Shown here: positions 1 through 15,130 of the stretch, piece by piece | Numbering within the stretch: the first letter of the stretch is position 1 | Layout: every line of letters begins with the position of its first letter | Source: an uncultured Ruminococcus sp. | Lineage (GTDB): Bacteria > Bacillota > Clostridia > Oscillospirales > Ruminococcaceae | Assembly (NCBI GenBank): GCA_902780505.1 | Contig: CACZFN010000004.1 | Coordinates: 1 to 64,000 of the forward strand | Direction: 5' to 3' | DNA length: 64,000 nt | Translations under genes and position numbers: made by a program | Notes under the pieces: generated by a model | Seen by the model: only the letters and a program-made list of their open reading frames with translations | Database searches by the model: none | What the model was told of the DNA's origin: nothing

Positions 1-60
1 CCCTGCTAAGGGAGTAGGTCTCGAAAGGGGCGCGAGAGTTCAAATCTCTCAATCCGCGCC
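1..60 (+). tRNA. tRNA-Ser(GCU), 3' part only
   Basis: The window opens inside a tRNA. The anticodon region reads CTGCTAA (anticodon GCT). It is followed by a long class II variable arm, a T-arm with the TTCAAAT loop flanked by GAGAG and CTCTC, and an acceptor end ATCCGCGCC. The 5' half lies outside the window. The last 22 bases also form the left copy of the integration repeat, so this gene is the attachment site of the outer element and keeps a complete 3' end. Confidence 0.85.
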
Positions 61-62
61 AA
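39..62. repeat. attL copy of the integration repeat
   Basis: This 24-bp stretch is identical to 14620-14643 and contains the T-loop to 3' end of tRNA-Ser plus two A residues. The identity stops abruptly on both sides (AG versus GA before it, G versus A after it), which defines the core. Confidence 0.85.
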
Positions 63-209: not shown

Positions 210-323
210 TTATTCTGCTTTAATGTCTTTGTTATCAAGCTGATTGTCAAGCAAAGCTGCGAGGGCATTAGATGCCGCTGCTTCGGCTGATTGTATTTCA
301 TGAGCGTATATACTCATTGTTGT
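210..323 (-). pseudogene. int: Displaced C-terminal tail of the tyrosine integrase
   Basis: Read on the minus strand from 323, this frame gives TTMSIYAHEIQ followed by an Ala-rich helix and a stop at 210-212, 37 residues in all. The TTxxIYxH pattern is the catalytic-tyrosine block of tyrosine recombinases. The integrase body at 7241-8599 ends its native sequence at LLGHSTAVTT and then becomes unrelated. The last bases of both pieces share GTTGT on the plus strand. Joining them there gives GHSTAV-TTMSIYAH, which puts the Tyr at His+10 as expected, in frame, for a 465-residue protein. This is therefore the missing end of that gene, separated by the nested transposon. It has no start or RBS of its own and is not expected to make a protein. 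Confidence 0.85.
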
Positions 324-331
324 CCTCTTGT

Positions 332-344
332 CAAATAGTAACAC
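332..344 (+). repeat. Left terminal inverted repeat of the nested transposon
   Basis: CAAATAGTAACAC is perfectly inverted at 7287-7299. The similarity extends outwards with mismatches (TGTCCTCTTGT here against TATCCCCGTTC). It lies 9 bp from the GTTGT crossover copy, as expected for a serine recombinase half-site. Confidence 0.75.
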
Positions 345-379
345 ACTTTCGTATGATGTGTAAACAACGTAAATACGCC

Positions 380-2026
380 TTAAAACAGGCTTCTCTTGTC
401 CTTGAGCGGTTCATCGAGCAGCTTGTAGTAGATGTAGATCTCACGGGGCTGTCCCTCCACATAGGCATCAAGGGTGATATACTCGATAAGTTCCAAGCAC
501 ATCTCACGGGTAAGCTCATGCACATCGGTATACTTTCTCAGGCGCTCCATGAACATAGCCACATCTTCTTCATCCTGCCTGATTGTGGAGAATCTTTCTT
601 CGAGGTCAGCAACTTCTGCGGACAGCTCTTTCTGTTCGGCTTCATATTTTGCTATCAGCTTCATCGCCACGTCCTCTGATACCTTTCCGAGGACTTTGTC
701 CTCATAGATGTTCTGAATCAGCGTGTCAAGCTCCTGCAAGCGGTATCTGCCCTCTGTGAGCTTCTTGGTATCAACGAAATACTGCTCCTCATGATGCTTC
801 GCCTTGCGTGCAAGAAATTCCGCTTTTGCCTTTTTCTCGTCCTCTACAACAAGCTGAGCAAGACTGCGAATATCTTCAAGCACAATAGCATCCATATCCT
901 GCATTTTGATGTAATGGCTGGGACAGTAACGCTTTCCGAACTTCATGTAGGAAGTGCAGTTGTAATTGTGGCGGATGTACTTTCTCGGCTTTTTCTTACT
1001 GCCGTTCGTGGTATTGTTCCACGCAAGACGGACTTTGTTTCCGCAATCCTGACAGTAGATCAAACCGCTGAGATTGGCTACATATCCGCTGCTGTTACGC
1101 TTGCCCTGCGACACTGACTGCTCCATCTCACGAACCCTGTCCCAAAGCTCCTGAGAAACAATCGGCTCGTGAGTATTCTTCACAACGATCATATCTTCCT
1201 CGTCATTTTTGATGACCTTGTGATTTTTGTAACTGACAGTTCTTGTGCGGAGCTGAACAAGGTGTCCGAGGTAGGTGTAATTGTGAAGTATTTGCCTTAC
1301 CGTTTCAGGACTCCACAAATGCCTTGTACGGCGAGGATTAGGCTTGCCGAGTTTTGCGTAGTAGTAGTCAGAGGGTATCGGCACACCGTCCTCATTTAGC
1401 TTATCAGCAATGTGGTGCGGACTGATACCGCTTGCTCGCATTTCAAAGATGTTGCGGACGATAGGTGCAGCATCGGGATCGATCACAGGCAGGTGATTCG
1501 GATCATCGCCTTTCGTGTAACCGAACGGAGCGCAGGTCGTGCGATACTTGCCAGCCTTTGCGTTTGCTTCGATAACTGCCTTAATCTTCTTGGAAGTCGA
1601 AGCAGCGTGCCACTCGTTGAACAAGTTGACGATTGGCATCATGTCAAGTGCTGAGGTATCCTTGCTTGCAGTATCCACATTATCGTTGAGAGCGATGAAG
1701 CGGATATTGTAACTCGGAAAAATGTAATCCACATATCTGCCGACTTCGATGTAATTACGACCGAAGCGTGAGAGGTCTTTGCAGATGATAAGATTTATCT
1801 TCCCAGACTGAGCATCGGACAGCAATCTCTGCACCGCAGGTCTGTCGAAGTCCGTACCGCTCCAACCGTCATCAACATAGGTGTCCACAAGATTCCACCC
1901 CTGCTCTTTGACATACTTTGTGAGGATAAGTTTCTGGTTTTCTATTGACAGGGATTCGCCGACTCTCATATCCTCCTGCGAGAGGCGGACGTAAATTCCT
2001 GCATTGTAAATGGTCTGCTTTGCCAT
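380..2026 (-). CDS. tnpX: Large serine recombinase, TnpX type
   Basis: A 548-residue enzyme predicted to excise and insert the nested transposon by strand exchange. The N-terminal resolvase domain has the catalytic serine in YVRLSQED (Ser16) and the conserved KDLSRFGRN block (about 83-91). The recombinase DNA-binding domain follows (about 165-300). A zinc ribbon uses C324/C327 and C356/C367, and a charged coiled coil occupies about 390-500. Length and order match the TnpX/TndX family. I start at 2026 (MAKQT) because AAAGGAG sits just upstream; the reading frame extends 24 codons further without such a site. Its stop is only 36 bp from the left terminal repeat, the usual end location for such a gene. 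It appears intact. Confidence 0.93.
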   Translation of the reverse strand: MAKQTIYNAGIYVRLSQEDMRVGESLSIENQKLILTKYVKEQGWNLVDTYVDDGWSGTDFDRPAVQRLLSDAQSGKINLIICKDLSRFGRNYIEVGRYVDYIFPSYNIRFIALNDNVDTASKDTSALDMMPIVNLFNEWHAASTSKKIKAVIEANAKAGKYRTTCAPFGYTKGDDPNHLPVIDPDAAPIVRNIFEMRASGISPHHIADKLNEDGVPIPSDYYYAKLGKPNPRRTRHLWSPETVRQILHNYTYLGHLVQLRTRTVSYKNHKVIKNDEEDMIVVKNTHEPIVSQELWDRVREMEQSVSQGKRNSSGYVANLSGLIYCQDCGNKVRLAWNNTTNGSKKKPRKYIRHNYNCTSYMKFGKRYCPSHYIKMQDMDAIVLEDIRSLAQLVVEDEKKAKAEFLARKAKHHEEQYFVDTKKLTEGRYRLQELDTLIQNIYEDKVLGKVSEDVAMKLIAKYEAEQKELSAEVADLEERFSTIRQDEEDVAMFMERLRKYTDVHELTREMCLELIEYITLDAYVEGQPREIYIYYKLLDEPLKDKRSLF

Positions 2027-2114
2027 AGTAACTCCTTTCAGATCAAAGCAGTACCATACCGACATCTTCAGTATAGCGCAAAATGCCGGTATAGTCAATG
2101 CTTTGCCGACAAAA

Positions 2115-2327
2115 TTACGCCAGTGTTTCTTTCATGGCTCTTTCAAAGGCGAGCCTGCCGATCACTTCGTCGATATTTTTCTCTCCGACGAAGCGGCTGT
2201 GAACGATGTACTTCTTCCCGTCGATCTCATATTCTGAGACACGCTCAGGGAAATCCTTGTACTTCTCGTTCAGCTCAAACATCTTTCCTGCCTTCTCTCT
2301 TTCTACGGCAGTATCATTTTTATTCAT
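2115..2327 (-). CDS. tnpW: Transposon-encoded protein TnpW
   Basis: A 70-residue protein of the TnpW family found next to serine recombinases in Tn4451-like transposons; its role is not established. The conserved part is YEIDGKKYIVHSRF followed by a C-terminal helix ending in ERAMKETLA. It lies 88 bp upstream of tnpX on the same strand and is preceded by AAAGGAG about 11 bases before the ATG. The pair is probably co-transcribed from the promoter near 2908-2937. Confidence 0.8.
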   Translation of the reverse strand: MNKNDTAVEREKAGKMFELNEKYKDFPERVSEYEIDGKKYIVHSRFVGEKNIDEVIGRLAFERAMKETLA

Positions 2328-2406
2328 AGCGAATTTTACTCCTTTAGCTTCTCTGTCTCTATGCTTTAGAGTCGAGGGCTTCGCTTTCTATCTCTCACCC
2401 TCATAA

Positions 2407-2457
2407 TAGCCGTAAGATCGGCTCAGTGTTTTGAGCCGACTGAGTATTTTACGGCTA
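2407..2457. repeat. Compound inverted repeat upstream of tnpW
   Basis: An outer stem TAGCCGTAA (2407-2415) with TTACGGCTA (2449-2457) encloses an inner stem TCGGCTCA (2418-2425) with TGAGCCGA (2432-2439). There is no T-run on either side, so a simple terminator is unlikely. It could be an RNA structure in the tnpW leader or a protein-binding site. Confidence 0.5.
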
Positions 2458-2479
2458 CACTTTTTGTTACCGGATAGTT

Positions 2480-2833
2480 TTAATCCTCATAGGGATTCAC
2501 TTTACCCGTAAAGCTCATTTGCTGTCCGAAGTCAGCGGCAAGATCGTCAGTATCGCTTTTCTCATTCTCAGCATTTCCACTCCCGACCAGTTTCAGAAGA
2601 TCTTCATCGGAAAGACCGCTTGCTCTCAGTTTCTCCAGAAGCAGATGCTCCGAGGTGATGATCTCATCAAGCTCTCTGGGTTTGCAGTTGTATTCTTCCG
2701 CCATCGCCAGACGGGAAACTTCTTTCAGCTTGTCCTCCAGCGTTTTCTTCTTCGCCGTATCGTTGGTGATACGCTTTTCCAAACCTTTGATCTTCTCGAT
2801 GAGCTGATCTCTTTTCTCTGTATAGATGCCCAT
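2480..2833 (-). CDS. Coiled-coil mobile-element protein (DUF4315-like)
   Basis: A 117-residue hydrophilic protein of unknown function. Residues 1-50 form a heptad-rich coiled coil of Lys/Glu/Leu/Ile, followed by a short helical domain with SGLSDEDLLKLV and an acidic tail ending in VNPYED. Small proteins of this layout, such as DUF4315, are common in Firmicutes mobilizable and conjugative elements; the family match is from general resemblance. The start at 2833 (MGIYTEK) has AAAGG upstream, though slightly far. The frame is open for 25 more codons, and MKGCDF at 2854 is the alternative. It is first in the minus-strand run leading to tnpW and tnpX. Confidence 0.6.
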   Translation of the reverse strand: MGIYTEKRDQLIEKIKGLEKRITNDTAKKKTLEDKLKEVSRLAMAEEYNCKPRELDEIITSEHLLLEKLRASGLSDEDLLKLVGSGNAENEKSDTDDLAADFGQQMSFTGKVNPYED

Positions 2834-2907
2834 AGAAAAATCACAACCTTTCATTTTTGTTCTCAGCAGGCAGAGCCGAGTGACCGAAGCCCACCTGCTA
2901 TGATCCA

Positions 2908-2937
2908 ATTATAGCGCGCTCTACATTTGAAATACAA
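2908..2937 (-). promoter_or_regulatory. Promoter for the tnpX-side genes
   Basis: On the minus strand there is an exact -10 TATAAT (2908-2913) and a TTGTAT-like -35 (2932-2937) with an 18-bp spacer. It faces the coiled-coil gene, tnpW and tnpX. Confidence 0.45.
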
Positions 2938-3094
2938 GCCGCAATGCGCACAAACTTTTGTTCATGGAATGTTAATAATAAACCGAGGAAAATTGAGATT
3001 CAAAAAACAAAAACAACGCTATTACGCCGTTTATGCTATCCGGTCATTTTGACGAAGCCATTTTGAGCGATCATAAGAAATCTAAAATTAGTTA

Positions 3095-3123
3095 TTGACG
3101 TGATCGGGAAAGTGCGCTATATT
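3095..3123 (+). promoter_or_regulatory. Promoter towards oriT and mobC
   Basis: TTGACG (3095-3100) and TATATT (3118-3123) are separated by exactly 17 bp. Transcription would cross the candidate oriT and enter mobC, giving a structured leader of over 200 bases. Confidence 0.55.
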
Positions 3124-3187
3124 GATAATGGGGAGCGACGATATAGAGAAATTCGCACAGCTCCAATTCTCGGAATCGAGAAAAAAA

Positions 3188-3345
3188 GACCGAGCCGAAA
3201 GGCTCGGAAATGACATTCGCCCCACAGGGGCGAAACTAGAGTAGCTAGAGTAGCAAGCACGGTACTATGTGGGCGCAAATTGCGACTTTACACATAGTAC
3301 AAGGCTTGGCAGAGGGCGCTGCCCCTACGACCCCGAATTGAGAAA
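3188..3345. other. Candidate oriT with three hairpins
   Basis: Three clustered hairpins precede mobC: CCGAGCC/GGCTCGG (3190-3196, 3201-3207), TTCGCCCC/GGGGCGAA with a 3-base loop (3216-3223, 3227-3234) and GTACTATGTG/CACATAGTAC (3262-3271, 3291-3300). A GGGCGCTGCCCC stretch and CTACGACCCC follow at about 3313-3334. Inverted repeats next to a mobC-type gene plus a GC-rich CGACCCC segment are typical of transfer origins in Firmicutes mobilizable elements. The nick site cannot be placed. Confidence 0.6.
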
Positions 3346-3367
3346 AATAAAAAGGAGAACAATAAGA

Positions 3368-3712
3368 ATGAAAGATGAAAAGAAGCGTACATTGTACCTG
3401 AAAGTTCGTGTCAGCCCCGAAGAAATGGCGGCTATCAAGAAGAAGTTTGCTAACAGCGGTATGAGCAGTCTCAGTACATTTGTGAGAGCCATGATCTTCG
3501 AGGGTTACATCGTCCATATCGACGAGAACGAGCTAAAACGGCTCACTGTACTTGCGAATAATATCGCAAACAATATCAACCAAATTGCCCACCGAGCAAA
3601 TGTCACAAACAAAGTTTACAAGGAAGATATTGAGGAGATTAAGGAGCTTGGCGATAAGCTCTGGCGTCCGCTGATGTTTCTGCAAACAAAGGTGGCTCAG
3701 CTAAAGCATTGA
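3368..3712 (+). CDS. mobC: MobC-like relaxosome accessory protein
   Basis: A 114-residue basic DNA-binding protein expected to help a relaxase open oriT. The N-terminal half looks like a ribbon-helix-helix fold (KKRTLYLKVRVSPEEMAAIK). The C-terminal helices carry the family pattern LARLGNNINQIA, here as LANNIANNINQIAHRAN. It starts at 3368, with AAGGAG nine bases upstream; the frame is open further up but runs through the oriT hairpins. The candidate oriT lies immediately upstream, the usual place. No MobA/relaxase gene follows, so the element has kept the accessory protein and site but lost the nuclease, or borrows one. Confidence 0.82.
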   Translation: MKDEKKRTLYLKVRVSPEEMAAIKKKFANSGMSSLSTFVRAMIFEGYIVHIDENELKRLTVLANNIANNINQIAHRANVTNKVYKEDIEEIKELGDKLWRPLMFLQTKVAQLKH

Positions 3713-3719
3713 GCAGAAA

Positions 3720-3818
3720 TTGAAAATCGCCGTCAGGATAATTCCCGACGGCGATGAAATACAATATGTGCGCTATGAACTGGACTGGCTTTTGAAATTG
3801 CTGCGCCTTTCACAATAA
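3720..3818 (+). CDS. Possible 32-residue peptide after mobC
   Basis: A TTG-started frame eight bases after mobC encodes a peptide beginning KIAVRIIPDGDEIQYVRYEL and ending in a Leu-rich segment. Its first codons overlap a 9-bp stem (ATCGCCGTC 3726-3734 with GACGGCGAT 3747-3755). There is no convincing ribosome-binding site. It could equally be the remains of a larger mobilization gene. Unrecognised. Confidence 0.3.
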   Translation: MKIAVRIIPDGDEIQYVRYELDWLLKLLRLSQ

Positions 3819-3903
3819 TGGTTACAATTATTCCGATATGCTGGACTCTGGTGCTATTATGGTATATACTGTATCTACAATATTGATTTGGAGGTACACA
3901 GCT

Positions 3904-4116
3904 ATGTTGAAAACACCTGAATTGGCAATGCCGAGAACAAACAAGGTCACTACCGTCTGCATCGGCAAACGTGAGGTCTGGACGAATTACGAAGAAGCAA
4001 AGGCATATTTTCTTGAAATGATGATGACCGCCGAGGGCGAGGAGCGTGACCGAGCAGAGTGCGTATACATTCAGCTCCTGAACGGTCTTGGCGAGTGCAG
4101 TGACGAGGATGAATAA
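3904..4116 (+). CDS. Small acidic hypothetical protein
   Basis: A 70-residue protein, not assigned to a family with confidence. It begins MLKTPELAMPRTNKVTTVCI, continues with a helix around NYEEAKAYFLEMMMTAEGEE and ends with an acidic tail (GECSDEDE). The start at 3904 is chosen for TTTGGAGG nine bases upstream. A strong terminator follows at 4124. Proteins of this size and style accompany mobilization modules in Clostridia, but the function here is unknown. Confidence 0.55.
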   Translation: MLKTPELAMPRTNKVTTVCIGKREVWTNYEEAKAYFLEMMMTAEGEERDRAECVYIQLLNGLGECSDEDE

Positions 4117-4123
4117 GCAGCAC

Positions 4124-4153
4124 AAGGGCTTTGCAGAAATGCAGAGCCTTTTG
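4124..4153 (+). terminator. Terminator of the mobC-side genes
   Basis: A 12-bp stem AAGGGCTTTGCA (4124-4135) pairs, with wobble, with TGCAGAGCCTTT (4140-4151) around a GAAA loop and ends in TTTTG. A separate 9-bp inverted repeat, CTCAGACGA (4161-4169) with TCGTCTGAG (4190-4198), lies just beyond and has no T-run. Confidence 0.75.
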
Positions 4154-4231
4154 CAATATCCTCAGACGAACGGAAAAGTTTCCTCAAAGTCGTCTGAGTC
4201 TATGTGTATAAACTAAAACGATAAGGAAAGT

Positions 4232-4258
4232 ACCCTCTCAGAAATGCTCCGAGAGGGT
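4232..4258 (-). terminator. Terminator of the cargo operon
   Basis: ACCCTCTC (4232-4239) pairs with GAGAGGGT (4251-4258), located 12 bases after the stop of the last cargo gene. The minus-strand tail is only moderately T-rich (ACTTTCCTT). Confidence 0.55.
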
Positions 4259-4270
4259 GCTTTATGATTA

Positions 4271-5422
4271 TTATGTGCCTGCTATAGAAAACGTTATCTC
4301 TTTTTGTCCATTATCAGAACTCATTATTTCAAGAGTATCATCATATAGTTTTGCCTCAAAACTTATTACTACAGGTTCTTCAGAGAGTATTTCTCCTGTT
4401 TCTTCTCTAATGTCATCTGATTCACCCTTTTGAAGCTTAACTTTAAGCTTAATTATCCCCGACACTGTGATCAATGAATTATTGAGTTCAAATTGAGTTA
4501 ATGATATTCTTGATGCTTCTAATAGTTCAACATGATCTGCAAGATGATTCACACAATCTATGGGGTTATTCATTACATAATCTACTATTGGATTTTCATC
4601 AATTTCACATAATGAGAAGATCCTATAAACTGTATCAATGCAAATATCGCTGATCTTTTTAAGGATAAGATATGCTGATTTGAAAATAAGCTGCCAATCC
4701 TCATCGAGAGGACTTATTATTTCATGAAATAGAGCGTTTCTTAATGAATATACAAAACTTGCAAACCACTCAATTCCATTAGTTTGTAAAAGCCTATGAT
4801 AAAAATATTGTTCTTTATTAATCAAACCATCAATATATGATTTGGAAAACAAGTTATACGGTAATTGCTTGAAAACGGCATAAGTGTTAATCTCATAAAT
4901 GCCGTTTGTTTCATTTGGGAACCGGTAGTTTTTCTCGAAATTCAGTCGAATACTTGTAAAGAAACGGTTAAGTTGTGATTGTATCTTTCTGCATATGGTT
5001 ATGTTGTATTTATTTGTATAGTCCTTATTAGATAATTTATCACCTATCTTTTCAAGTAGTTTATCATATAATTCTTTTAGAATGGAAAGTTCATCTATAC
5101 TCTTATTTGCTTTTATGTATTCGGTGGTATGTTTAAAAATATCACGGGTAACCTCTCTTCCAAAATGTATATGGCGTTCAAGCTCCATTTGATCAACAGA
5201 GTAGCCGTAATCATGTACAAGCGAATAGATATATAGCTGACGTACAGCTTCTTCAGGAGTGAGTTTTATATCTTTATTTCTTACCTGACACTTTATATAA
5301 GGCGAATCATTTCCCTTTACCTTTTTCATAAAAATCATTGCTTCGATTGCACTTATTGCCTCATCTGAAAACAATGTTCCCTTATGAATACTGTCTTTAA
5401 ACAAATCATCGAGTTTATACAT
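4271..5422 (-). CDS. HsdR-N-like / HEPN-motif protein, third cargo gene
   Basis: A 383-residue protein, not characterised. Residues about 53-95 (LTPEEAVRQLYIY, then GY, then FGREVTRDI) resemble the start of the type I restriction HSDR_N_2 fold. The run stops where the PD-(D/E)xK catalytic strands would begin, so nuclease activity from that fold is unlikely. Residues 228-233 read RNALFH inside a helical stretch, which is the R(N)x3-4H signature of HEPN RNases. The last 70 residues look like a beta-rich domain. ATG at 5422 has GGAGG seven bases upstream and follows the previous stop by two bases, so translation is probably coupled. A role as toxin or effector in phage defence is inferred from motif and operon. 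Confidence 0.6.
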   Translation of the reverse strand: MYKLDDLFKDSIHKGTLFSDEAISAIEAMIFMKKVKGNDSPYIKCQVRNKDIKLTPEEAVRQLYIYSLVHDYGYSVDQMELERHIHFGREVTRDIFKHTTEYIKANKSIDELSILKELYDKLLEKIGDKLSNKDYTNKYNITICRKIQSQLNRFFTSIRLNFEKNYRFPNETNGIYEINTYAVFKQLPYNLFSKSYIDGLINKEQYFYHRLLQTNGIEWFASFVYSLRNALFHEIISPLDEDWQLIFKSAYLILKKISDICIDTVYRIFSLCEIDENPIVDYVMNNPIDCVNHLADHVELLEASRISLTQFELNNSLITVSGIIKLKVKLQKGESDDIREETGEILSEEPVVISFEAKLYDDTLEIMSSDNGQKEITFSIAGT

Positions 5423-5424
5423 AA

Positions 5425-6216
5425 TCAATCCTCCGAATTCTTTTTTGGGCGTTCATCTACTATACGTTGTATCTCGTCCATATACACCTGTAAACGTAAT
5501 TTAAACTCATCAGTCTCATTGTATTGCTCATCTTTACCTATACGAGCAATGGGAAGGAACATATCTCCATAGGAATACAGTTTTGGAGAATAGTCGCTTG
5601 TATCGGCACATATAATCCTGTTATGATTCTTTCCCTTTTCATCTCCAAGACGTAACCTTACTTCTCTTAATGATAATTTCTTGAAGCCGTGTTCAAAGAA
5701 AAGAAAATTCATACTTCCTTTGCGAGCCTCTGATTCATATGCTAAACAATCCGGCTCCTGATAAGCAATCTCATCTATAAGCTCTCTTTCACCTTTTGTT
5801 ATGCGCTCGTGTTTTTCGAGTTTCTTCAGTATTTTATTGAACTCCAATTGAGTACCATCAATTATTTGTAACTCCTTACGTGGATAAACCGTTGGAATAA
5901 AACTGCTTCCATCATCATAAGCCCAAAATGTTATAATATTATTCCCTGATCCCCATCGTTTGATCTCAGCTCGGCTTGTTTCAGGGCTATCAGCCCAATA
6001 TGAGAGTTTCTGCCCCCGAAATAAATTTGAATAACGATTATCAGTTCTGCTAAGACGAAGATTTCCTGCATGAAGTTCACTCACAGTCTTGCCATACATA
6101 CTTGGATCAAATTCAATACATCTAAAAAAATCGAACTCACCTGTCATAATCATAGGAAGAGTTCTGTGCTTTAGAACAGATAAATTACCTGTGTGATTTA
6201 TAAACGTTAATCCCAT
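5425..6216 (-). CDS. RES-like domain protein, second cargo gene
   Basis: A 263-residue cytosolic protein. Residues 54-88 contain LRLSR, then FRGQ, then YWADSPETSRAEIKRW. The spacing of Arg57/Arg67, Tyr73, Ser-Pro and Glu84 resembles the conserved Arg, Tyr and Glu of RES-domain toxins, which degrade NAD+. The third RES residue, a later serine, cannot be placed with confidence. A second conserved-looking block is FFEHGFKKLSLREV (174-187). The start at 6216 is preferred because AAAGGA sits six bases upstream; a TTG overlapping the previous stop is the alternative. The next gene begins two bases after this stop. The RES assignment is pattern-based and tentative; no other fold is proposed. Confidence 0.55.
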   Translation of the reverse strand: MGLTFINHTGNLSVLKHRTLPMIMTGEFDFFRCIEFDPSMYGKTVSELHAGNLRLSRTDNRYSNLFRGQKLSYWADSPETSRAEIKRWGSGNNIITFWAYDDGSSFIPTVYPRKELQIIDGTQLEFNKILKKLEKHERITKGERELIDEIAYQEPDCLAYESEARKGSMNFLFFEHGFKKLSLREVRLRLGDEKGKNHNRIICADTSDYSPKLYSYGDMFLPIARIGKDEQYNETDEFKLRLQVYMDEIQRIVDERPKKNSED

Positions 6217-6227
6217 AGTTAATCCTT

Positions 6228-7082
6228 TCAAGATAATTCTTTGTCCAAAAGCTCTTTAATGAAGCCAAAGTCCTTATTAGAGAAAAGCATTCTTGTGCAT
6301 TCACGTTCAATATACATATTGTAAAGAGCTATATTTTTAATATCGTACTCATCAAAGCAAAATAAATCGTTCCATTTAACAGATTTAGGATACATCTCAA
6401 TAGCAAATAACGGCGAAATCGGAATGTAATATGTGAGATCATCAGATGCAGCCGAAACATGGACATTCTTACCGTGATTTATTGCTATTAACGGGTTATC
6501 AGATGTAAGGAACGGTAATTCTGTGTGATTGACTATAATAACCCATTTTTTGTCATTGAACATATTGGCATAAAAATGAGCTAAGTCAAAAGATAAGATT
6601 TGAGTATTCTGCAACCTCTTAAAGTCTGACTTGTCGTAATCAGGAATAGAACCATAAGGAACATGGGCTTTTAATTGATCATAGATGTACTCAAACTGCT
6701 TACGTAATAAATTAGTGCGCTGTATTTGCATCGCAAATTGGGCACTTAATGCCTGTCGCTTTGAAAGAGGATAATCAACATAACATCCCTTACGATCTTT
6801 TTTCTCAAATGTTATAGAACATATTAGCTCTTTCAACAAATCCGATAAATCAGTTTCAATTTTCTGAAAAAGCAGCTCAAGGATTTTCTTGTTTTCACCT
6901 AATTCCGGTATATCATAATAATTGCCTTCAACTGGAAAGTCTCCTGCACAACCGCATCCTGAAATTCCTTTTTCTTTTAAATAGTAATAGATACTGCTCT
7001 TTCTGCCCTCGTTACCATTTGCTCCGAAGTTAGCAATATAACAAGATGGAACAATATGCTGTTTCGTATACTCTTTTCCCAT
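6228..7082 (-). CDS. DUF4238 protein, first cargo gene
   Basis: A 284-residue protein with the DUF4238 hallmarks: HIVPSCYIANF near the N-terminus (9-19), a helical middle with QFAMQIQRT (115-123), FLTSDNPLIAINHG (191-204) and YYIPISPLFAIEM (218-230). The biochemical role of the family is unknown to me; members often sit on mobile elements. The start at 7082 has AGAGGTG upstream. It is the first gene behind the promoter at 7151-7179, and its stop is 11 bases before the next start. The His and the SDNP segment could belong to an active site, but that is speculation. Confidence 0.8.
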   Translation of the reverse strand: MGKEYTKQHIVPSCYIANFGANGNEGRKSSIYYYLKEKGISGCGCAGDFPVEGNYYDIPELGENKKILELLFQKIETDLSDLLKELICSITFEKKDRKGCYVDYPLSKRQALSAQFAMQIQRTNLLRKQFEYIYDQLKAHVPYGSIPDYDKSDFKRLQNTQILSFDLAHFYANMFNDKKWVIIVNHTELPFLTSDNPLIAINHGKNVHVSAASDDLTYYIPISPLFAIEMYPKSVKWNDLFCFDEYDIKNIALYNMYIERECTRMLFSNKDFGFIKELLDKELS

Positions 7083-7150
7083 ATAGCACCTCTTTCAAAG
7101 GTGAAAATAATTAATTATTATATTTACAATCATTCGCTATTTATCTTTTT

Positions 7151-7179
7151 ATTATATCATATTTTGTGCAAATAGTCAA
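7151..7179 (-). promoter_or_regulatory. Promoter of the three-gene cargo operon
   Basis: On the minus strand, TTGACT (7174-7179) and TATAAT (7151-7156) are separated by exactly 17 bp. It is one of the best matches in the window. It lies inside the transposon, so the cargo carries its own constitutive-looking promoter. Confidence 0.75.
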
Positions 7180-7209
7180 TTAGAAATCGAACATTATTCT
7201 ATTATTGCG

Positions 7210-7239
7210 AAAAAAATGCTTCCCATTATCTGAGAAGCA
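7210..7239 (-). terminator. Terminator insulating the transposon end
   Basis: On the minus strand, TGCTTC (complement of 7234-7239) pairs with GAAGCA (complement of 7217-7222), followed by seven T. It lies between the right transposon end and the cargo promoter and would stop transcripts from the interrupted integrase entering the cargo operon. Confidence 0.8.
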
Positions 7240-7240
7240 C

Positions 7241-8599
7241 TTATATTATTTGAATTATTCTATCGGTAGGTACTGCATGGGGTCTCGTGTTACTATTTGG
7301 AACGGGGATAGTTGTGACGGCTGTCGAATGACCTAAAAGCGCCTGCACTGTTTTGGGATTTGCACCGCTATTGATTAGTAAAGTAGCGTTTAAATGTCGC
7401 ATACTATGAACCGACACGCGAGGGAGATCATATTGTTCACAGAATTTCTTTAAAAAAGTATATGGAGTTGACATTGACATTTGAGCGCCTTTATCAGTCG
7501 TGAATAAAAGATCTTGTATGTTATTCCAATAATCGCCATAGTTTAAAGCGGCAGATAATTGTTCATTTTTAAGCTGCTTTAAAATAAGTAATACCCTATC
7601 GCTTATCCGTACAGTCCTTTTTGATTTTGTGGTTTTAGGGTCTGTATAGTAGTATCCCTTTGATTTATTCCAATGTACAGCCCGGTTTATATGAACAACA
7701 TTGTTTTCAAAGTCAATATCTTTCCATGTAAGTGCGAGTATTTCTCCACGCCTGAAACCGCCATATATAGCGAGATTAAAGAAAGCCCTGTATTTTAATT
7801 CGGCATGTTCATCAAGAAGTTGTAACAACTTTTGAGTTTCCTCAATTGTTAGTATCTTATGTTCAATTGCATTAACTTTTGGTAGTGTACAATTATTGCA
7901 GGGGTTTACTGCTATTTCCCCTATTTTCACAGCATAGCTAAATACTGTTGATAAAAAGCCATGATAACCTCTTATTGTTTTGGCGGAAAGCTTTCTATCG
8001 TCCGTTTCCTTTTCAAATATCGTTTCCGGTCTCTTTTCAAGAGCTTTTGCTATTTTTACAGCGCTTTCCCATACAATTCGATCTTTTTTATAACAGCTAC
8101 GAATACAATTATCTGATACCTCAGCTCTGGCGGCAAACGCTTTTTGTGTTTCGCCCATATCTTTTAAAACCTTTGCCATGTCTATTTTGCACTTTGCTAA
8201 GGGGGCGGCACAACGCTCATTTGCAAGCCATACTAAAAAGTTGTCAATATCTCTTGTTTTTATCCTATCTATGCGAAAATGACCGAGCTGAGAATATATT
8301 CGAGGGCATAACGCCCTATATTTCTTTATTGTCGAGATCGTCAGCGCTGTTTCGTGAACTGTAAACCAGTCCTCAATAAACGCCTGCAATTTCCTGACGT
8401 TTACAATTTTACCATTGTTGCAAGCCGCCTCAAATTCTGTGGCAGCTTTATTTAGCGCTCTTGCAAGCTGTTTTTCGGTCATATTTTCCTTTGGCGGTTT
8501 CCATGTCATTGACTGAGTAATCTGTTTTGTACCGTCTGCGGAATATCCACAACTTACACGAATTAAATAGCCCGATTTACGCTTAACTATTTGTGCCAT
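7241..8599 (-). pseudogene. int: Tyrosine integrase, interrupted before the catalytic Tyr
   Basis: As written this is a 452-residue ORF. Residues 1-428 are a tyrosine integrase: N-terminal arm-binding region, core-binding domain, then a catalytic domain with Arg in GGFRRGEI (about 283-284), HSMRH (His398, Arg401) and LLGHS (His424). After AVTT430 the sequence is transposon-end DNA (IPVPNSNTRP and on), with no tyrosine. The true tail is at 210-323. Precise removal of the nested element restores Tyr434 in frame. A second oddity is that residues about 138-200 contain an Xre-like HTH (TQKAFAARAEVSDNCIRSCY) inserted in the core-binding domain. The start at 8599 has AGGAGG about eight bases upstream. 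It lies 14 bases after the zinc-cluster gene, as one operon. Confidence 0.9.
7287..7299 (-). repeat. Right terminal inverted repeat of the nested transposon
   Basis: The inverse of CAAATAGTAACAC at 332-344, located 11 bp from the second GTTGT copy (7311-7315). It is translated as part of the foreign tail of the interrupted integrase. Confidence 0.75.
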
Positions 8600-8613
8600 T
8601 AGCATTTCCTCCT

Positions 8614-14504: not shown

Positions 14505-14619
14505 AGTTGCAAAAACACACAAAATAATACTTGATAATACTCAAATGACATTTTATAAAACCGCGTAAAATTGGCGTTTTCCGAGCGTTACAAAATGTTA
14601 CAAAATGAAAAAAAGTGAA

Positions 14620-14643
14620 TTCAAATCTCTCAATCCGCGCCAA
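14620..14643. repeat. attR copy of the integration repeat
   Basis: Identical to 39-62. The upstream tRNA-Ser arms are missing here, so this is the duplicated 3' end only. It marks the right border of the accessory region. Confidence 0.85.
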
Positions 14644-15045: not shown

Positions 15046-15130
15046 TGGTGCGGGTGACAGGACTTGAACCTGCACACCATACGGCATTAGAACCTAAATC
15101 TAACGTGTCTGCCAATTTCACCACACCCGC
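15046..15130 (-). tRNA. tRNA-Leu(UAG)
   Basis: On the minus strand the acceptor GCGGGTG (15124-15130) pairs with CACCCGC (15050-15056), followed by A and an encoded CCA (15046-15048). The anticodon loop is ATTTAGG (anticodon TAG), the variable arm is long, and the T-loop is TTCAAGT. It is a complete class II tRNA of 85 bases with CCA. Confidence 0.9.

Follow-up and report, generated by a model that had tools for sequence, protein, structure and literature searches.

The 64,000-nucleotide stretch analyzed here (the window) is the start of contig C4 (CACZFN010000004.1) of an uncultured Ruminococcus sp., whose 2.82-Mb genome is assembled in 51 contigs. Near its beginning lie two parts of a tyrosine integrase gene, and between them an element of ~7.0 kb that carries a gene for a large serine recombinase of the TnpX type and has inverted repeats as its ends. 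The integrase itself belongs to another mobile element, referred to below as the host element. The features that define the split are as follows.

210-323, minus strand: C-terminal integrase piece, including the catalytic Tyr and the stop codon, identified by translation; its first Thr codon is element-arm sequence
321-344, no strand: tnpX-side arm, reading GTGTTACTATTTGACAAGAGGACA on the minus strand; it adjoins the AC core at 319-320, belongs to inverted repeat I3 and is conserved in relatives
383-2098, minus strand: TnpX-type large serine recombinase of 572 aa; its domains are Resolvase, Recombinase, zinc-ribbon and DUF4368, and among solved structures TnpX (2mhc_A, E 1.6e-28) matches best
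7241-7310, minus strand: tail IPVPNSNT..., without a Tyr, encoded by the element end; the same or a near-same tail follows the split at the other upstream junctions
7287-7310, no strand: cargo-side arm, reading TATCCCCGTTCCAAATAGTAACAC on the minus strand; it adjoins the AC core at 7311-7312
7311-8605, minus strand: integrase from its N-terminus through the middle part, running as far as GHSTAVT and the AC of the Thr codon that follows (PF00589; homologues L116-L118)

The open reading frame (ORF) at 7241-8605 on the minus strand encodes a tyrosine integrase that starts at a Met at either 8605 or 8599. It matches PF00589 (E 8e-28) as far as profile position 162 of 172, and its closest solved structures are Int proteins (6en0, which we take to be the Int of Tn1549, and relatives). 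As the original prediction had it, this ORF retains the HxxR box and LLGHS and then enters a tail that lacks the catalytic Tyr; the missing Tyr-bearing C-terminus, stop codon included, does lie at 210-323 on the minus strand. Translation of that piece begins TTMSIYAHEIQ... and reads TTMSIYAHEIQSAEAAASNALAALLDNQLDNKDIKAE, followed by the stop. The gene is cut within the Thr codon following GHSTAVT, with the split point between the GH motif and the catalytic Tyr. A terminator had also been assigned to the gene. A hairpin can be seen by eye at about 170-206, after the stop, but a terminator scan did not list it.

We searched the N-terminal piece alone against 247 genomes of the family (E ≤ 1e-80), and matches were found in three, its own genome included. 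Homologues that are uninterrupted come from two other genomes and from a paralogue in the window's own genome, with 52, 50 and 47% identity to the piece. In these three natural homologues, LGHSQAS or LGHSQTS passes directly into TTLDIYAAAF or TTLNIYAH. The original prediction was to fall if homologues lacked such a join from GHS to TT; since all three have it, the claim stands that a TnpX-family element sits within the integrase gene of its host element and splits it precisely, each half matching uninterrupted homologues. At the level of sequence, this shows precise insertion at the integrase site, from which it would follow that the split integrase is inactive and the host element locked in place.

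The inverted repeat that forms the element ends spans 323-344 and 7287-7308. In the arms common among copies, GTGTTACTATTTGGCAAGGGGACT and TATCCCCGTTCCAAATAGTAACAC flank AC, and 20 of 24 positions are complementary (counted by hand). AC was present at all 15 upstream and all 30 downstream junctions compiled, the downstream search pattern favouring AC. The preceding base was A in seven, T in three, G in three and C in two of the 15 upstream junctions, and T or A in the downstream ones. Because the arms are symmetrical about AC, the crossover core is most likely this dinucleotide, which lies in the codon for the Thr that precedes the Tyr by four residues (GT on the plus strand; 319-320 and 7311-7312). 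The GTTGT reported at both broken ends is indeed found at 319-323 and 7311-7315. We rejected it as a 5-bp crossover or target duplication, since relatives have different bases ahead of AC at their two junctions and the arms are symmetrical about AC; as these junctions indicate, it is a chance extension of the core. A palindromic target site was also considered and set aside, the compiled half-sites having no clear dyad by eye. The inverted ends and, judging from the junctions, the 2-bp crossover are of the TnpX/TndX type, as are the Resolvase, Recombinase, zinc-ribbon and DUF4368 domains and the TnpX homology of the recombinase.

To place the insertion among its relatives, contigs from 84,980 species genomes were scanned for the recombinase, which yielded 56 loci. 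At 38 of them, an in-frame tyrosine-integrase C-terminus (TTxxxY or NTxxxY) lies directly beyond the element end, on the recombinase's strand. The recombinases of these 38 loci are 74–98% (29 loci) or 65–73% (nine loci) identical to that of the window over the best aligned segment. Ten loci, with recombinases 50–59% identical, showed no integrase C-terminus when up to 330 bases (133 for L047) were translated in three frames, and eight were fragments or ended too early (L027, L032, L039, L050, L066, L067, L071 and L072). In such C-termini the element arm provides the codon for the initial residue (the first of TT or NT), and the target supplies T-xxx-Y.

A search of 26 whole genomes for the arms (downstream arm with ≤3 mismatches) mostly returned the same insertions as the recombinase loci. 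The downstream arm gave 29 matches in 24 genomes. With the window added, TTxxxY is encoded at 30 of 30 downstream ends and TTxxxYxH at 28 of 30; among all 3916 ACNAC sites in L017-L071, real ends included, the corresponding counts are 153 and 33. One further downstream end, in genome G139, also encodes TTxxxY. The 30 ends represent 21 C-terminal types (≤7 differences per 26 residues within a type). L017 and L053, whose recombinases fall in different subclades, lie at the same AC in near-identical host DNA (96% over 1062 bp). The pattern is thus wider than the original prediction foresaw: the same codon has been struck repeatedly in many different integrases, and this recurrence points to target specificity of the recombinase clade instead of a single event.

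The upstream arm gave 19 matches in 10 of the 26 genomes, one of which (L109) is the downstream arm of L140. With L109 left out, an integrase ending in GHxxxxxT precedes the upstream end in 14 of 18 cases. Pfam analysis of 10 of these 14 upstream halves found PF00589 in every one, with the match ending at profile position 157–161 of 172. In Ruminococcus albus 8, six upstream ends and three downstream ends were found; five of the upstream ends lie in five different integrases. Both ends surround apparent halves of one integrase at seven loci (the window, L017, L026, L031, L149, L150 and G139). Contig C68 of R. albus 8, a candidate for a single 26.6-kb element, was left uncounted; its tnpX is a 306-aa C-terminal piece. 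At L112, also in R. albus 8 (about position 1501), the upstream end comes after only ~25 codons resembling the start of another integrase, either a second target or a deletion.

Occupied and empty sites could be compared directly in G139, a genome of the same genus with a 3.56-Mb contig, where one chromosome holds one occupied and one uninterrupted integrase gene. Each of the two integrases is 98% identical over 361–365 residues to one query from the window's genome. The uninterrupted copy continues GHSAISTTTSIYLH, and the occupied copy is broken at AC into the element end, its Tyr half lying 29.0 kb off, past the recombinase. On the left side, the last 40 bases ahead of the break are identical to the empty copy, and identity is 87.8% over 1100 ungapped bases. 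On the right side, counted from AC, identity is 90% over 60 bases, 92.5% over 120 and 80% over 240. Occupied and empty DNA could also be paired between genomes, and every match begins at AC.

Occupied L052 and L057 against L039: 95.7% over 115 bp
Occupied L028 against L039: 94.8% over 115 bp
Occupied L020 against L039: 82% over 118 bp
Occupied L156 against L012: 89.5% over 276 bp
Occupied L056 against L014: 83% over 557 bp

The existence of both kinds of site is consistent with precise excision of the element as a circle by TnpX.

We next considered how the trait is distributed among recombinases. On a tree of 45 sequences (28 integrase-targeting, nine not, and eight unlabelled, L059 included), the integrase-targeting label requires one change; none of 500 shuffles was as low, and the same was seen in 86% of bootstrap trees. 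Like site-specific integrative and mobilizable elements (IMEs), the clade inserts at a single conserved gene site in what are presumably other mobile elements, the gene here being the integrase. The searches gave no sign of spread beyond close relatives. A class-level scan of 391 genomes (E ≤ 1e-150, up to three candidates per genome scored) found the recombinase in its own genome only, and a genus-level scan (E ≤ 1e-200) found it in two of seven genomes. Viral contigs contained one relative, 27% identical, and the matches in 400 plasmid and 1092 phage records all stayed below 60% identity. The window's genome also encodes three further recombinases (L002, L003 and L004), 51–55% identical to TnpX.

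These data make it highly probable that the element family targets DNA encoding the active-site segment of tyrosine integrases in Ruminococcus-type genomes. In the mechanism we propose, a clade of large serine recombinases would have as its target the DNA encoding GH-xxxxx-T-xxx-Y. The recombinase would bring an attP, composed of a 24-bp arm, AC and a second 24-bp arm, to the Thr codon four residues ahead of the catalytic Tyr, and strands would be exchanged at AC. The N-terminal half would then end in a short tail encoded by the element, and the catalytic Tyr would be left beyond the element's other end; excision mediated by TnpX, as expected of its family, would rejoin the halves as before. 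The anti-phage cargo of some relatives (see below) suggests where the advantage probably lies, namely in a conserved target that the cell can do without and that other mobile elements offer many times over. Disabling a rival element may be a benefit or a mere side effect.

Several observations weigh against this reading. Four of 18 upstream ends lie outside the GHxxxxxT site (L096, L105 and L111 in other sequence, with L112 as the fourth), and only 10 of 26 genomes yielded an upstream arm, perhaps because of contig breaks or diverged arms. Since the arm supplies the first Thr codon at the downstream ends, only T-xxx-Y counts there as target, and the conserved target bases may reflect conservation of the integrase protein. 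Branch support for the clade is only 87/93. Finally, mobility of the element and loss of integrase activity are what we infer from the DNA.

The question that most affects the biological meaning is whether the split is reversible. That excision would re-enable the integrase is plausible, and a gene-interrupting switch of the skin, nif/fdxN or phage-in-comK type, in which controlled excision would re-enable the host integrase, is compatible with targeting. Both halves in the window are open, the ends match and the recombinase is full-length. Among 15 upstream halves (the window and 14 others), nine are open over at least 348 codons, the half in G139 is likewise open, and L102 is unclear (N). 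Yet five of the 15 look decayed, with a stop or frameshift (L099, L100 and L101) or a truncation (L104 and L110), so a good share of the insertions look like dead ends. Moreover, the many different integrases, the several insertions per genome and the defence cargo of some copies form a selfish or defence pattern, not that of a developmental switch. We therefore regard such a switch as unlikely. On the simplest view, the element is selfish or defensive and has a clever landing site. A bolder version, in which a clade with anti-phage defence in some members evolved recognition of the active-site codons of its rivals' integrases, immobilizing prophages, satellites and conjugative elements one by one (five integrases in R. 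albus 8) and releasing them on excision, is possible but doubtful.

Explanations that do away with targeting fare worse. The DUF4368 domain of the recombinase is typical of a multi-targeting clade (PMC10083194; here and below, publications are cited from portions of their text), as would suit one chance insertion by a TnpX transposon of low specificity. Such an event is very improbable given the same codon at 30 of 30 downstream ends in 21 C-terminal types and the restriction of the trait to one clade; on account of the recurrence we rejected it. One might instead take the C-terminal piece, which directly adjoins the element end in the copies read, for element DNA serving as a decoy or replacement tail. 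We give this practically no credence, as the pieces vary (21 types) among copies with near-identical recombinases, and empty sites carry the same DNA in continuation of an uninterrupted integrase. Fusion of the element to integrase fragments by faulty assembly might be suspected from the many contigs that break within the element and from the window's contig, which begins 37 bases before an attachment (att) repeat. But the arrangement is seen in 26 genomes (24 from the arm search, the window's own and G139), some of them recorded as isolates, and a 3.56-Mb contig holds both ends, which makes an artefact scarcely conceivable.

The element carries further genes between the recombinase and its other end.

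2115-2327, minus strand: 70-aa ORF beside tnpX, without a family (ORF list and family scan)
2480-2908, minus strand: 142-aa ORF without a Pfam match; versions of 124-135 aa in L017, L149 and L150
3254-3308, no strand: inverted repeat I9 ahead of the NikA-like gene, an oriT candidate, from the upstream sequences of five elements
3368-3712, plus strand: NikA/MobC-like mobilization protein (ORF 3269-3712, likely start 3368; PF21983 E 6.1e-18, PF05713 E 3.6e-8)
4271-7082, minus strand: three-gene cargo encoding proteins of 385 aa, 268 aa and 284 aa, the last with DUF4238 (family and PADLOC scans)

The 70-aa ORF is a candidate recombinase helper. No version of the 142-aa ORF was found among the ORFs listed for L031. 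In five compared elements the NikA-like genes begin with near-identical residues and have an inverted repeat ahead, weaker in L031 (by eye); in L149, matching changes occur in both arms of this repeat (by eye). With the NikA/MobC-like protein, the putative oriT ahead of it and no relaxase among the eight ORFs scanned, the element likely borrows a relaxase. We conclude that the ~7.0-kb interval is a Tn4451/TnpX-type element and a candidate mobilizable one.

Among the proteins of the window's element, only the 385-aa cargo protein gave a PADLOC match: its first 95 residues match a type I methyltransferase (PDLC03034), and its C-terminus has a weaker nuclease match (E 0.026). The 268-aa protein (5425-6231) matched nothing in Pfam, NCBIfam or PADLOC at the thresholds applied. 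Its gene and the DUF4238 gene also occur in L017 and L149, and in all three elements the 268-aa gene sits between the DUF4238 gene and a restriction-type gene; the protein is possibly part of an unrecognized defence module. No drug-resistance gene was seen by eye in the ORF lists or in family scans covering the proteins of the first 15 kb. PADLOC was also run on 14 cargo ORFs from four related elements, with no match for four and weak matches only for two. The element of Ruminococcus flavefaciens FD-1 (L150 1520-19178, 17.7 kb) encodes the DISARM proteins DrmA (E 2e-217) and DrmB (E 2e-81) and a GajB-like (UvrD-type) helicase, a DISARM-like cluster carried within an integrase-splitting element. 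The SAb67 element (11.5 kb) encodes a type I methyltransferase and specificity subunit, the L017 element (9.0 kb) a type IIG enzyme and specificity subunit, and the L031 element a subtilase-like protein. ORFs of the G139 element resemble ABC transporters (by eye).

The host element is bounded by two copies of a tRNA-Ser 3' end.

38-61, plus strand: attachment repeat of the host element in the tRNA-Ser 3' end; the contig begins inside the tRNA
14619-14642, plus strand: second attachment repeat, with one mismatch

These repeats bear out the earlier view that the splitting element is nested in another mobile element. The tRNA-Ser identity is a reading of the anticodon arm, and ARAGORN lists only a tRNA-Leu at 15046. 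The contig starts 37 bases ahead of the first repeat, and its first 62 bases (window 1-62) are identical to the end of contig C11 (L094 1464-1525). The shared bases stop at the att repeat plus A, the branch point expected of an empty host-element site, and are a possible sign that some cells lack the host element. Between 8614 and 14642, the host element encodes an excisionase-like protein, a protein with a weak terminase-small-subunit match and a sigma-like protein; no structural gene was found among the proteins scanned. The host element could be a phage satellite.

Taken together, the insertion site is the catalytic core of other elements' integrases, hit across many integrase types and several times per genome. 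The recombinase would have an evolved, family-wide target, and the element would provide a natural way to silence integrases and a testable case of conflict between elements in rumen and gut bacteria. As a caution for such genomes, an integrase that is truncated may have been split and not have decayed.

Tn4451 and Tn4453 resemble the window's element in having a TnpX-related large serine recombinase (2mhc_A), a 2-bp crossover between att sites and a mobilization gene. The Tn4451 core is GA. The window's element differs in its AC core and in the recognition of integrase active-site sequence in many genes; moreover, its eight scanned ORFs include neither a relaxase nor a resistance gene, and some relatives carry defence genes. 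For TnpX-type recombinases, PMC5704250 describes a 2-bp core, with excision and integration that need no directionality factor, and on this basis excision would be expected here too; it also describes a class of elements that borrow a relaxase. Serine-recombinase IMEs in conserved genes of integrative and conjugative elements (ICEs) are known (PMC5357655, PMC5704250, PMC7168690). Of 16 streptococcal serine IMEs, 12 specifically disrupt genes of other mobile elements (PMC5357655), as in traG, maff2 and snf2. Their targets are conjugation-region genes of one ICE superfamily, whereas the target here is the integrase active site in many types (Tn916-type with PF02920, and phage-type domains). The DUF4368 recombinases of Durrant et al. 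2022 (PMC10083194) share the domain and the many target genes: one cluster hits many target gene clusters, and some recombinases possibly evolved to target a sequence present at many sites. In the portions cited, that study does not name integrase genes as targets, and its Pfam enrichment of target genes excluded the multi-targeting clade. In Streptococcus suis, a smaller element truncates the serine integrase gene of an IME (PMC7168690); this is likewise a case of one mobile element inactivating another's recombinase gene, but it is described as a single one, with an inserted element of another kind and no excision in the authors' tests. PMC8301612 was unrelated.

Nowhere in the literature searched, which left most subscription papers, preprints and supplements outside its scope, were integrase genes or their active site named as the target of a serine recombinase family. 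IMEs in ICE genes and multi-targeting DUF4368 recombinases are thus known, and the integrase active site as a family-wide target appears to be new, nothing in these sources running to the contrary. Inteins and homing introns are similar in that selfish elements occupy the most conserved codons of a gene family; here, in contrast, there is no splicing, and the target gene is broken for as long as the element is in.

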